64,000 nt of DNA from Thiorhodovibrio winogradskyi (lineage in GTDB: Bacteria > Pseudomonadota > Gammaproteobacteria > Chromatiales > Chromatiaceae). A program made the position numbers and the translations under genes. Below, piece by piece: positions 648 through 4,179 of this stretch. Location: assembly GCF_036208045.1 (NCBI RefSeq), contig NZ_CP121472.1, positions 3,297,531 to 3,361,530 on the forward strand, given 5' to 3'. Position 1 is the stretch's first letter, and every line of letters starts with the position of its first letter. Under the pieces are notes generated by a model. It was not told the DNA's origin and searched no databases. It was given only the letters and a program-made list of their open reading frames with translations.

Positions 648-1073
648 GTGAAACGACGAAGACGGCGCAAGTGTTTGCACTGCGGTGAATTATTCCATCC
701 TGACGCGCGCAACGTGCACCACCAGCGTTACTGCGGCAAGGGCGAATGTCGCCGTGCCAGCAAAGCGGCCAGTCAGCGGCGCTGGCTGGATAAAGCAGCC
801 AACCGCGACTATTTCCGCGGCCCGTCCAATGTGGAGCGCGTGCGTGACTGGCGGGCGAAGCACCCCGGCTACGCCCGCGCCCGCCCGGCACAAGGGGCGG
901 GGGCGTTACAAGAGGACTGCGCGGCGCAAGTGGCTGAAATAAATAGCGATTCAGAGCACTTAAACAGCAACGCGTTACAAGATCTCTTGGGCGCGCAAGA
1001 GATTGTTCTCATTGGACTTATCGCCAACTTAACCGGCTCGGCGTTACAAGAAGCTATGCCGCATGCGGCATAG
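648..1073 (+). CDS. zinc-ribbon protein of mobile-element type, C-terminus altered
   Basis: The protein has 141 residues. The GTG start at 648 is chosen because GTGGAGGA lies just upstream and the basic zinc-ribbon region begins right there; an upstream open extension is a pyrimidine tract. The N-terminus is KRRRRRKCLHCGELFHPDAR followed by HHQRYCGKGECRRASKAASQ, a Cys4-type zinc finger (CxxC ... CxxxxC). The next motif, RDYFRGPSNVERVRDWRAKHPGY, resembles a family of unnamed proteins that recur beside transposases and recombinases. The last codons run into a perfect 32-bp palindrome, so the native C-terminus (expected to continue after GSALQ) seems to have been replaced by AMPHAA. Probable DNA-binding role; function unknown. 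Confidence 0.55.
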   Translation: MKRRRRRKCLHCGELFHPDARNVHHQRYCGKGECRRASKAASQRRWLDKAANRDYFRGPSNVERVRDWRAKHPGYARARPAQGAGALQEDCAAQVAEINSDSEHLNSNALQDLLGAQEIVLIGLIANLTGSALQEAMPHAA

Positions 1074-1171: not shown

Positions 1172-1480
1172 CTAGAGACCGTTGAGGAATTGTAGGAGAC
1201 GGTCGTCGGCCTGGAAGCGGCCCGGTTGGCCTGGATGGGGTTGGACCTTTTCCAGGGCAGCCTCCTTGAGGGCCAGATGTGCGTCGAGGTAGATCTGGGT
1301 GGTCTTGATCGACTCATGCCCCAGCCAGAGCGCGATCACGGTCGGCTCCACACCGGCCTGGAGAAGCTCCATGGCGGCGGTGTGGCGAGCGACATGAGGC
1401 GAGACGCGTTTGTTGGCCAGCGACGGGCAGGTGCGGGTGGCCGCCGCCGCATGCTTGGCGAACAGAGGCTCTTTATCTGC
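1172..1480 (-). pseudogene. C-terminal fragment of a tyrosine recombinase (RIT-like)
   Basis: On the minus strand, homology-like sequence begins near SAADKEPLF and runs through RVSPHVARHTAAMELLQ, IALWLGHESIKTTQIYL and the end LLQFLNGL. These carry the catalytic HxxR, the LGH histidine and the nucleophile tyrosine (QIY). About two thirds of a normal recombinase is missing at the N-terminus, including the first catalytic arginine. The C-terminal wording (ALWLGHES, then a GRxxxDDRLLxFL tail) is typical of recombinases found as triplets in RIT elements. The break point near 1465-1475 is also where the divergent acetyltransferase fragment starts, so one deletion or insertion clipped both. Confidence 0.7.
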
Positions 1481-1905
1481 GGCGCTGTGCATCCCAGGAT
1501 GTGCGGCGAGGCATTGCCCGCGTTTTCGTCGCCACACCCCCTGATGAGACGATACGTCCCGCCGGTTTTTTCGCGCTCAGTGCGGGGAGCATTCGTGCCG
1601 AGACCTTGCCACCAGAGATAGCCCGCAAGCTGCCTCGCTATCCGGTGCCGGTTGCGTTACTTGGACGCTTGGCCGTTGATTTGAATTTCCAGGGCCGTGG
1701 GTTAGGGTCGATCTTGCTCTCCGATGCCTGCCGCAAAGTGGCGCGGGCGAGCCAGGTCCTTTCCGTCGCCGCGATTGTGGTGGATGCCAAGGACGCATCA
1801 GCAGCGGCCTTTTATCGACACTTTGGTTTCCTGCCTTTGCCCGGTTGCCCAGAGCGCCTGCTGCTGCCAGCACATGTTTTAAAGGGTCTTCAAGACATCG
1901 CTTAA
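1465..1905 (+). pseudogene. GNAT acetyltransferase lacking its N-terminus
   Basis: The readable product from GTG 1501 has 134 residues: ARVFVATPP, GFFALSAGSIRAETLPPEIA, LLGRLAVDLNFQGRGLGSIL (acetyl-CoA loop Q/RGxGxG/L) and AAFYRHFGFLPLPG. In-frame similarity extends back to about 1465 (YLRRCASQDVRRG), without a start codon. Members of this GNAT group, including TacT-like toxins that acetylate aminoacyl-tRNA, normally have some 30 more residues before this point and are paired with a DUF1778/RHH antitoxin. Neither is present. The first strands of the GNAT fold are missing, so it is probably inactive; translation from GTG 1501 remains possible. Confidence 0.65.
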
Positions 1906-1993: not shown

Positions 1994-2665
1994 ATGCTTA
2001 AACGCCGCAGCCGCGAGATCTCCATCTTCAACCTGTCGATGCTCGATGTCTTCGCGAGCGCGATGGCAGCTTTCTTGATCATCATGATCATCCTGCTGCC
2101 GTATTACGACCGCGACGCCATCGCCGAGCAATCCTGGATCGCGGAATTGGAGCAGGACTTGAACGCCGCCCAGGAGGCCTTGTCCCGATCCGAGGCGGCG
2201 CATGCTGCCACAGAGGCTGAGGCCGGCGCAGCGCGGGCTGAGGCTGAACAGCAGCAACAGCGAGCGGATCGCTTGGCGAGTCGCTTGGCGCGCACATTCT
2301 TGGTGCTGTACATTCGCTGGAACACACTCGATGACATCGACCTTCATGTGATCGACCCCAGCGGCGCTGAATTCTTTTTCGAGCACAAGACCCGATCTGG
2401 CCGCCCTGGCGAACTCAGTGAAGATACTGTCAACGGACCAGGCAATGAGGTCTGGGAGGTGCGCGATGCCCCTTCGGGCGACTATCGCATTGTCGCTCAC
2501 CTGTTCAAAGTCAAAGACCGTCGCAAGCCGGTAGAGGTTCAAGGCCGGGTGTTTCATCGCGACGGCAGTAACGCCTTTCCCAATGTCCAACTCCATCGCT
2601 CGGATGCGTCGGTGCTCATCACCACCATTCAAGTCGATAACGATGGAAACGTAACGCTGCGATAG
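1994..2665 (+). CDS. membrane protein: TolR/ExbD-like TM segment, coiled coil, DUF2135-like domain
   Basis: The protein has 223 residues. A short basic N-terminus is followed by one TM segment at about 15-38 (LSMLDVFASAMAAFLIIMII), with Asp18 at its cytoplasmic edge. The pattern N-x4-D-V followed by hydrophobic residues resembles TolR, whose gene in this window reads NVVPYIDVMMVLLVIFMV. Residues 48-98 are a coiled coil rich in Ala, Glu and Gln. Residues 100-223 form a beta-rich domain starting LYIRWNTLDDIDLHVIDPSG, with a later GDYRIVAHLF, which resembles DUF2135/YfaP-type domains. The C-terminal domain should be periplasmic. The kinase gene begins about 110 bp downstream on the same strand. 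No ExbB/TolQ/MotA-like gene adjoins it. Function unknown. Confidence 0.65.
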   Translation: MLKRRSREISIFNLSMLDVFASAMAAFLIIMIILLPYYDRDAIAEQSWIAELEQDLNAAQEALSRSEAAHAATEAEAGAARAEAEQQQQRADRLASRLARTFLVLYIRWNTLDDIDLHVIDPSGAEFFFEHKTRSGRPGELSEDTVNGPGNEVWEVRDAPSGDYRIVAHLFKVKDRRKPVEVQGRVFHRDGSNAFPNVQLHRSDASVLITTIQVDNDGNVTLR

Positions 2666-2778
2666 TCGATCAGTGCAAAACCGAGCGTCTTGCTGTGTTG
2701 CAGCTTGCTGTCTTCGCAGCGATGACAGCACAGAATGCCACAATCGATCATGAGATCTCTGAAGTGACAGGACAGCCG

Positions 2779-4179
2779 ATGCCAACTGCTACCCAACCTG
2801 CCGAATTGTGTCCCGGATGTTTTCAGCTGAAGGGTGCTGCCAATCCCTGCCCACACTGCGGCTTCGATGAGACGGCCCCGCGACCGCTGCAAGCACTGCC
2901 GCTGCGAACGCAGCTCAACGAACAGTTCGTTGTCGGTCGGGTGCTTGGCAAGCCTGGGGGGTTTGGTATCACTTACCTCGCCTGGGACCGGATACTCGAA
3001 GCCACGGTTGCCATCAAGGAATACCTGCCCCGCGAGCTGGCCATGCGTGCGCAGGACAGCCGCGCCCTGCATCCGCACAGCCAGGAGGAAAGCGACCTGT
3101 TCCGCTACGGTCTGGAGCAATTCCTCGCCGAGGCGCGGACGCTGGCCAAGCTGGACCATCCCAATTTGGTGCGCGTGCGGCAGTTCTTCGAGGCCAACGG
3201 CACCGCCTATCTGGTGACGGATTACTACCAGGGCTGCTCGCTGGCCGAGCATCTGGAGCGCCAGCCCGGCGGAAAGATGAGCGAGCCCGACGCCCTGGCG
3301 CTGATGCAGCCGATCTTGGATGGCCTGCGCGCCGTCCACGCCAAAGGCTTCCTGCACCGCGACATCAAGCCACAGAACATTTACCTGGCTCAGACCGACA
3401 GCGGCAGCGTGCGCCCCATCCTGCTCGACTTCGGCGCTGCCCGGCAGGCGATGGGGGATCGCAGCCGCTCGCTGTCGGTGGTGATCAGTCCGGGCTACGC
3501 GCCCTTTGAGCAATACCACCGCAAAGGCCAGCAAGGGCCGGCGACTGACATCTATGGCGCGGCGGCGGTGCTGTATCGGATGCTCACTGGCGTGGCGCCG
3601 CCGGAAGCGACCGAGCGAATGGCGGGGGATGACTTGCGCCCGGCGGCTGACTTCGGCATCGACGCAGCGATCAGCGGGGCTCTGACGCAGGCGTTGGCGA
3701 TAAAGATGGACGAGCGGCCAGCGTCGATTGGGGTTTTCCAGCAGGCGCTGAATTGGCAAGTAATGGATTTTGATGAGGAGCACGGCATTCAATCTGCGCG
3801 TACCGAGATTAAGCACTCAGCGCTGCGGGTGCCAGAGTTGCAAGAGCATCCTTTGAAAAGACCTGGAGGACGCGTCGGTCGGATGCTGATTGTACTGATT
3901 GGCCTGACATCACTCGCCGGTTTAATCGGTGCGGCGCTATGGAGGGATGCGCAAGAGCGCGCGCGCCAGGAAGCGGCATTCTCTGCGCAGTTAATCGAGC
4001 AGGACAGGACAGCCTATGCCGCCGCTGAAGAAACGGATACAGCTGAAGCCTATCGGGCATACCTGAGCGCCTGCGTGCCCTCAAGCTCCAGTCCCTCCAG
4101 CCAGTCCCCCCAACCATCTACCCCAAAGCATCATGCGCGCGCTCGCCAGAGCGCCGCTCGCCGTTACGTCTCAAGATAG
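2779..4179 (+). CDS. zinc-ribbon Ser/Thr protein kinase with one TM segment
   Basis: Start ATG 2779 follows AGGACA; longer starts (GTG 2695, ATG 2722) have no ribosome site. Residues 11-27 form a zinc ribbon (CPGC ... CPHC). The kinase domain follows: LGKPGGFGITYLA (glycine loop), VAIKEYLP (lysine), HRDIKPQN with catalytic Asp195, LLDFGAARQ with Asp217, and SPGYAPFEQY. This is a complete active-site set of the bacterial Hanks type. A TM segment lies near 370-389 (LIVLIGLTSLAGLIG). Beyond about residue 450 the sequence turns into Ser/Pro/Arg-rich text (SSSSPSSQSPQPSTP), unlike a folded domain; a frameshift near 4075 is possible. It probably works with the upstream TM protein, but substrates are unknown. 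Confidence 0.85.
   Translation: MPTATQPAELCPGCFQLKGAANPCPHCGFDETAPRPLQALPLRTQLNEQFVVGRVLGKPGGFGITYLAWDRILEATVAIKEYLPRELAMRAQDSRALHPHSQEESDLFRYGLEQFLAEARTLAKLDHPNLVRVRQFFEANGTAYLVTDYYQGCSLAEHLERQPGGKMSEPDALALMQPILDGLRAVHAKGFLHRDIKPQNIYLAQTDSGSVRPILLDFGAARQAMGDRSRSLSVVISPGYAPFEQYHRKGQQGPATDIYGAAAVLYRMLTGVAPPEATERMAGDDLRPAADFGIDAAISGALTQALAIKMDERPASIGVFQQALNWQVMDFDEEHGIQSARTEIKHSALRVPELQEHPLKRPGGRVGRMLIVLIGLTSLAGLIGAALWRDAQERARQEAAFSAQLIEQDRTAYAAAEETDTAEAYRAYLSACVPSSSSPSSQSPQPSTPKHHARARQSAARRYVSR

Follow-up and report, generated by a model that had tools for sequence, protein, structure and literature searches.

Gene content of the window locus

Two neighboring forward-strand genes are the subject of this analysis (Table 1), in which the window denotes the whole 64,000-nucleotide stretch of DNA that was analyzed. 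The first encodes a single-pass membrane protein, here called P, and the second a zinc-ribbon Ser/Thr kinase, K. P begins with MLKRRSREISIFNLSMLDVFASAMAAFLIIMIILLPYY and carries the motif N13-x4-D18-V19, in which Asp-18 is the sole charge between Asn-13 and Tyr-38. The initial annotation had placed this aspartate at the edge of the only transmembrane (TM) segment, in a context like that of the TolR encoded in the same window (L059; N-x5-D-V), and this description holds. Conservation of the residue among homologues, proposed there as a check, proved complete and beyond what chance would give: all 23 aligned homologous matches, from 17 distinct genes, have an aspartate (five genomes are counted twice, and an aspartate in the subject was no precondition), as do four more distant homologues (loci L117–L120).

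An AlphaFold2 model of P (mean pLDDT 78.5) shows a single helix at residues 8–99 followed by β strands at residues 102–222. The coiled coil read from the sequence agrees with the modeled helix; the DUF2135-like nature of the outer domain stands only through an intermediate. This domain aligns with approximately residues 938–1064 of a VIT protein (28%, E 4e-9), whose residues 1016–1063 are Pfam DUF2135 (E 4.8e-15); in a direct Pfam search with window P (P0001), DUF2135 (PF09906) was not reported. For the fold of this domain, Foldseek produced no match of confidence, the best being 2qng (E 1.5e-3, TM 0.39/0.50), and in a profile search against PDB sequences nothing scored better than E 0.29. A plasmid search with window P returned zero matches.

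The kinase was described earlier as membrane-anchored with an N-terminal zinc ribbon, and the Pkinase match, the CxxC pairs, and the TM helix bear this out. Its visible motifs are CxxC...CxxC, VAIKE, HRDIKPQN, and DFG, so that K has the catalytic Lys, HRD, and DFG of a Hanks-type kinase within its Pkinase domain. We revised its start: ATG 2779 (466 residues) is more likely than GTG 2695, because the alignment with the kinase of the second locus described below (L003) begins there. Beyond the TM helix, the tail of K (3940–4179) is short, with a Ser/Pro-rich end; a paralogue in L003 carries an Lcl_C domain at this place, and an Lcl_C outer domain was found in both of the two zinc-ribbon kinases scanned besides window K. 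The source genome holds three close kinase copies (at least 83%), all within its two P loci, and six others at 32–42%.

To the left of the pair lies the mobile-DNA scar that the initial annotation had recognized, made up of an integrase fragment and a GNAT-like fragment. The counterpart of the latter in L003 falls marginally below the Pfam GNAT cut-offs. Further left, within the ORF at 495–1073, GCGTTACAAGA occurs three times at 69-base spacing, and an inverted repeat whose arms are 19 bases long comes next (window 903–1051 and 1045–1082; the third copy was found by reading). A tblastn scan of the window with reference proteins found none of the genes for M (the MotA_ExbB-family protein described below), T, PP2C, or FHA proteins. 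The reported absence of a TolQ/MotA-type partner next to the pair is correct for the window.

Table 1. Features of the P-K locus in window coordinates
Feature	Position	Strand	Basis
Tyrosine-recombinase fragment, part of the scar bordering the pair	1172..1537	-	Pfam Phage_integrase, 1.4e-11
GNAT-like fragment, at the place of the PP2C gene in relatives	1484..1903	+	66% to fragment in L003
P, 223 aa, ExbD/MotB-type subunit slot	1994..2665	+	Reading frame, comparison with relatives
P TM segment, about residues 15-37, best-conserved stretch, retained when the outer domain is swapped	2036..2104	+	Alignments, hydropathy
Asp18 codon of P	2045..2047	+	D in 23/23 aligned matches (17 distinct genes)
P coiled-coil helix, about residues 40-99	2111..2290	+	AlphaFold2 model
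P β-rich DUF2135-type outer domain, about residues 100-223	2291..2662	+	Model; VIT-protein link; no direct Pfam match
K, zinc-ribbon Ser/Thr kinase, one TM helix, 466 aa from the likelier start	2779..4179	+	Pfam, motifs, L003 match, hydropathy
Zinc ribbon of K, CPGC...CPHC	2809..2859	+	Sequence reading
Kinase domain match of K	2938..3609	+	Pfam Pkinase 1.9e-31, residues 82-305 of the 494-aa reading
TM helix of K, residues 369-387 of the 466-aa form	3883..3939	+	Hydropathy

A second locus in the same genome

The one-contig source genome encodes a single other P, at 79% identity and 117 kb from window P. At this locus (L003), one strand carries, in order, K, a trypsin-TM-FHA protein (T), a PP2C enzyme (C1), P, an ORF that we take to be Rpn-like, and a GNAT-like fragment. 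These are followed by the gene for Z, an FHA protein that contains a Cys cluster, that for F, which is a second and small FHA protein, and finally that for M, which matches Pfam MotA_ExbB (E 5.1e-13). The overlap is four bases between the genes for T and C1 and one base between those for C1 and P. With the A2 profile at E ≤ 1e-5, M is found once in the genome, beside the P paralogue and 113 kb from the window pair; seven further MotA_ExbB-domain matches are of other types.

The TM segments of window P and of the M-linked paralogue differ at one residue, and pairwise dN/dS between window P and three relatives is low (0.08, 0.09, and 0.10). For these reasons, window P could work in trans with the M of the second locus. 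Related GNAT-like fragments are present at both loci, immediately upstream of P in the window (1484–1903) and, with the Rpn-like ORF, between the P and FHA genes in L003 (9847–11719), a hint of rearrangement between the two.

Related loci in the order and class

A scan of genome contigs gave seven loci, and the others came from searching 210 genomes that belong to the order and 369 that belong to the class. Our comparison set comprises 20 loci of 18 genomes encoding P or V, the latter being homologues in which a vWA domain replaces the DUF2135-type domain. Gene content was determined by tblastn with reference proteins, and counts were tallied by hand. Locus L121 of G422, where a C-terminal piece of P lies at a contig end, is outside this set.

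Of the 20 loci, 14 encode M on the fetched stretch (L096 has it in pieces), 15 encode K, 16 encode T, and 15 encode C1, of which L097 has a fragment; no kinase is found on the fetched stretch of five loci. The six loci lacking M on the stretch are the window, L098, L099, L101, L117, and L119, the last on a 6.5-kb contig. Outside the window, the genomes concerned encode M on other contigs, so that all 18 genomes have it. Two of the checks suggested at the outset, whether homologues stand beside a kinase and whether a MotA/ExbB-type gene is their conserved neighbor, are answered by these counts. The conjecture that a TolQ/MotA-type partner had been lost from the pair is largely upheld, with M near the pair in those 14 loci, including the second copy of the same genome.

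The fullest clusters (L010, from the cultured purple sulfur bacterium Thiocapsa imhoffii, and L092) read K-K-T-C1-P-Z-W-C2-F-M, where W combines vWA, a signal-like segment, a TM helix, and an FHA domain, and C2 is a PP2C enzyme with a C-terminal TM helix. T and W are both membrane-crossing FHA proteins. Genes overlap in T-C1-P of L003 and in T-C1-P and Z-W-C2-F-M of L010. Two genomes from other families of the class have the orders M-Z-C2-V-T-F (G299) and F-M-Z-C2-x-T-V-x-K (G244). In V, the TM segment is kept while the outer domain is exchanged (L008 V against L007 P, 78% over 46 residues), as would be expected of a segment tied to one fixed partner and an outer domain that serves as an exchangeable head.

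The fate of the genes varies among close relatives. In two genomes of one genus, the P matches are split over two frames, and the M gene is in pieces in G009 but not in G007 (L098:8918–9561 in G007; L096:18406–19052 and 3527–4125 in G009), so that the module decays in places. A genome of the same genus as the source, G182, has two clusters (L094 and L095) with near-identical P genes, whose dN of 0.004 indicates a recent duplication; another, G183, has neither P nor M.

Co-occurrence of P/V with M

Within the order, M is present in all 14 genomes with a strong P or V and in 5 of the 196 others (Fisher 4.9e-18, uncorrected for kinship, with thresholds chosen after the match lists had been viewed). 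M was counted at E ≤ 1e-60, which drops G027, G028, G040, and G204. An A1 match at E ≤ 1e-5 occurs in 24 of the 210 genomes; 14 were kept, and ten with the profile only partly covered (best E 2.8e-12) were excluded, namely G018, G023, G027, G028, G029, G046, G053, G081, G160, and G196. The genomes having M without a strong P are four outside the P set plus G196.

Across the class, 8 of 369 genomes have an A1 match at E ≤ 1e-8, and six of the eight are exactly those with a strong M (E < 1e-90); G422 belongs to the six through its truncated P piece. The remaining two matches cover the outer domain only, in long proteins.

M belongs to the MotA_ExbB family

Pfam MotA_ExbB (PF01618) was found in all three M proteins scanned (5.1e-13, 3.8e-11, and 2.7e-14), with scores of 49.3, 43.3, and 53.5 bits where the cut-off is 22.9. 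Hydropathy gives M a MotA-like layout, the second TM being placed by eye, and in 7/7 M sequences the pore threonines (GTV; TT or ST) align with those of the TolQ encoded in the window. The AlphaFold2 model of M is weak (pLDDT 56.7). Searched with Foldseek, it gave 50 listed matches, all of them chains from motor complexes of the Tol, Exb, Mot, or Pom kind, the best being TolQ chains (8odt_A, E 1.8e-3, probability 1.00); none of the matches listed is below E 0.001. A profile search with M ranked antichymotrypsin first (E 0.015), which we took as a chance match, followed by MotA (0.24) and PomA (near 0.7).

In a tree of 36 MotA_ExbB domains, a branch with support 100/99 separates six M and three sister-type sequences from six MotA and 21 TolQ/ExbB, the last two groups being labeled by motif and the program warning that long branches meet. 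In the same tree, M is set apart from the sister type only weakly (56/36).

P occupies the place of an ExbD/MotB-type subunit

Like ExbD/TolR or MotB, P carries a conserved aspartate close to the cytoplasmic end of its one N-terminal TM helix, and at the 14 loci counted above it has a linked M gene. In a Pfam search of window P up to E 10, with filters that drop most matches above 0.1, neither ExbD (PF02472) nor MotB (PF13677) appeared, and Pfam reported no OmpA-like peptidoglycan-binding domain in this protein. The proposed profile relation to ExbD/TolR is not supported: profiles with shuffled columns scored equal or better in 7, 14, 22, 34, 38, and 56 of 100 cases for six sequence sets; for a seventh, made up of four sister proteins, the figure is 1 of 100. 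The HHalign value of 77% against ExbD from a four-sequence sister set was given no weight because the reworked set fell to 55% (1/100 shuffles) and a set of 32 sequences to 2% (34/100). As a positive control, the ExbD and MotB profiles matched each other at 83–88%. Membership of P in the ExbD family is not supported.

Against MotB the profiles are suggestive at best, shuffles being as good in 0, 1, 3, 4, 5, 6, and 25 of 100 cases. The 32-sequence sister set matched the MotB TM/plug region at 46% (0/100 shuffles), or at 28% (1/100) with P added; five smaller sets gave 2–17% (3–25 of 100). Because the TM profile of P behaves much like shuffles against ExbD and is only suggestive against MotB, it is architecture, conservation, and linkage, not demonstrated descent, that put P in the ExbD/MotB slot.

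A sister module

Sister-type M genes have neighbors of a similar kind. At all 20 sister loci examined, chosen mostly from the top among 48 genomes with weaker M matches, one or two single-TM proteins with an Asp motif are encoded close by. Their TM motif resembles F-x-LSFLD-xxx-CGFGA, and the aspartate, read by eye, is present in 36/36 such proteins listed. Profiles built from the N-terminal parts of P/V match those of these proteins at 94–97%, which indicates that this Asp-TM type accompanies the M clade well beyond the kinase clusters.

The sister module is widespread (L106, L107, L108, L122, and L166–L185), with vWA domains where scanned. In G027, the Asp-TM pair comprises one clear and one weak vWA protein; G028 and G204 share this set, all three genomes with a PEGA/FGE protein upstream, and G046 has the Asp-TM pair without M on the stretch.

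Comparison with known systems

The MotAB/PomAB stator shares with the module the MotA_ExbB domain and layout of M, the N-terminal TM helix of P with an aspartate at the cytoplasmic end of that helix, and a suggestive MotB resemblance of the 32-sequence sister set. It differs in that P/V have a DUF2135-type or vWA domain in place of a Pfam OmpA-type domain and in that M stands apart from MotA in the tree. ExbBD/TolQR is alike in the domain, pore threonines, and best Foldseek matches of M; P, however, lacks an ExbD domain, and the tree separates M from TolQ/ExbB.

In the threonine phosphorylation pathway of type VI secretion (PpkA, PppA, Fha), an envelope machine is controlled by a kinase, a PP2C enzyme, and an FHA reader. 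The module has the same kinds of protein and would control a MotAB-like machine instead. With ArnA (FHA) and ArnB (vWA), a similar set of parts, including kinases and a phosphatase, is described around motility; these proteins, however, control archaellum expression in an archaeon and are not a motor subunit. Identity with a known defense system was rejected, as the kinase matches PD-T4-6 and MAD6 models, and T matches RT-Protease models, through their kinase or protease domains, and no full system was seen.

In Myxococcus gliding, the TolQR-like motor AglRQS works with the bitopic FHA protein GltG (PMC3169522), and T and W of the module are likewise membrane proteins with FHA domains. AglQ and AglS, however, belong to the ExbD/TolR family, and the gene table of that paper includes no kinase, PP2C, or vWA protein (PMC3169522). 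Zorya ZorAB is a MotAB-like unit with accessory proteins in which the ZorB aspartate is described as critical (PMC11890865), and the module likewise combines a MotAB-like unit, with an aspartate on the partner, and accessory proteins. Identity with Zorya was nevertheless rejected: M matches ZorA models weakly and partially (1e-6 to 7e-3), and ZorB–E models found no match among the ten proteins scanned. Our full-text searches of open-licence papers found no description of the module or of its sister.

Discussion

What the window contains is one piece of a branch of the MotA/ExbB motor superfamily that is linked to kinases. We judge it probable that the pair is an orphaned remnant of a conserved module in which a MotAB-like, ion-driven unit of M and P/V is under phospho-control. 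The ion-driven character is argued by analogy with the 5:2 motors Mot, Tol, Ton, Gld, and Zor, each described as serving a particular machine, in which the aspartate, present also on ExbD, TolR, and PomB, is stated to be absolutely required (PMC12905483). Several observations weigh against this explanation: the M model is poor, the ExbD profile mostly scores like shuffles, Pfam finds neither ExbD nor MotB in P, and P and Z of L003 are kept apart by the Rpn-like ORF and the GNAT-like fragment. The missing M, T, PP2C, and FHA genes of the window, the P and M genes in pieces, the five loci with no kinase on the stretch, and the genomes that have M but no strong P also count against it.

The core of such a machine would be a membrane unit of M with P, or of M with the vWA-bearing V, presumably in a 5:2 assembly, the partner contributing one TM helix and the invariant aspartate. 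Ions passing between the pore threonines of M and this aspartate would move M around P, and the DUF2135-type or vWA domain may grip or sense something periplasmic. The zinc-ribbon kinases, with their kinase domain in the cytoplasm, would phosphorylate threonines, and the PP2C enzymes would dephosphorylate them. FHA proteins docking on the phosphothreonines could then switch the unit or recruit the trypsin-FHA and vWA-FHA membrane proteins. For the window pair, which has lost its neighbors, the sole possible partner would be the single M 113 kb away.

It is a tentative possibility, compatible with every other reading considered here, that the window P-K pair taken alone is a decaying, non-working relic of a lost cluster, since the neighbors M, T, PP2C, and FHA are missing, a mobile-DNA scar lies on the left, and the kinase tail is unusual and unlike that of the paralogue. 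Both frames are open, however, and the low dN/dS of P and a TM segment that differs by one residue from that of the M-linked paralogue speak for continued function, with M possibly acting in trans.

Signal flow could also run the other way. The initial annotation had proposed an energy-coupled or force-sensing input to the kinase, and both this and phospho-control of the unit fit the data. The cytoplasmic FHA domains and phosphatases of the clusters make phospho-control at least as likely, and we judge it the likelier of the two. In the reverse arrangement, which appears unlikely to us, the M-P unit would sense the envelope state or proton-motive force and pass this through the zinc-ribbon kinase to the FHA proteins. 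The kinases are membrane-anchored, K directly follows P in 4/20 loci (the window, L095, L101, and L117), and swappable P/V outer domains would suit a sensor. Nevertheless, in most fetched loci the gene after P encodes the FHA protein Z and not a kinase, and the kinases own an outer domain (Lcl_C), making another input unnecessary.

That M and P merely keep the fold as a membrane scaffold on which phospho-signaling proteins assemble, with no ion-driven work, agrees with outer domains unlike those of known motors and with the missing demonstration of descent from ExbD/MotB, yet it is improbable given the retained aspartate and pore threonines, which a mere scaffold would not need.

We return to the phospho-controlled, ion-driven unit. 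On balance, the chances are about even that it represents a new class of envelope machine, related to the widespread sister machine and combining a MotAB-like unit, exchangeable DUF2135-type or vWA heads, a full kinase/PP2C/FHA circuit, and a trypsin-type protease with a cytoplasmic FHA domain. The module seems to join a proton-channel motor of the type that drives flagella to kinase/phosphatase signaling better known from eukaryotes. If this is true, a further motor branch that has a partner not recognizably ExbD, outer domains open to exchange, and a kinase circuit of its own would broaden the known uses of these motors, and phospho-control or energized sensing at the bacterial inner membrane would become directly testable, with the P aspartate and the M gene as handles.
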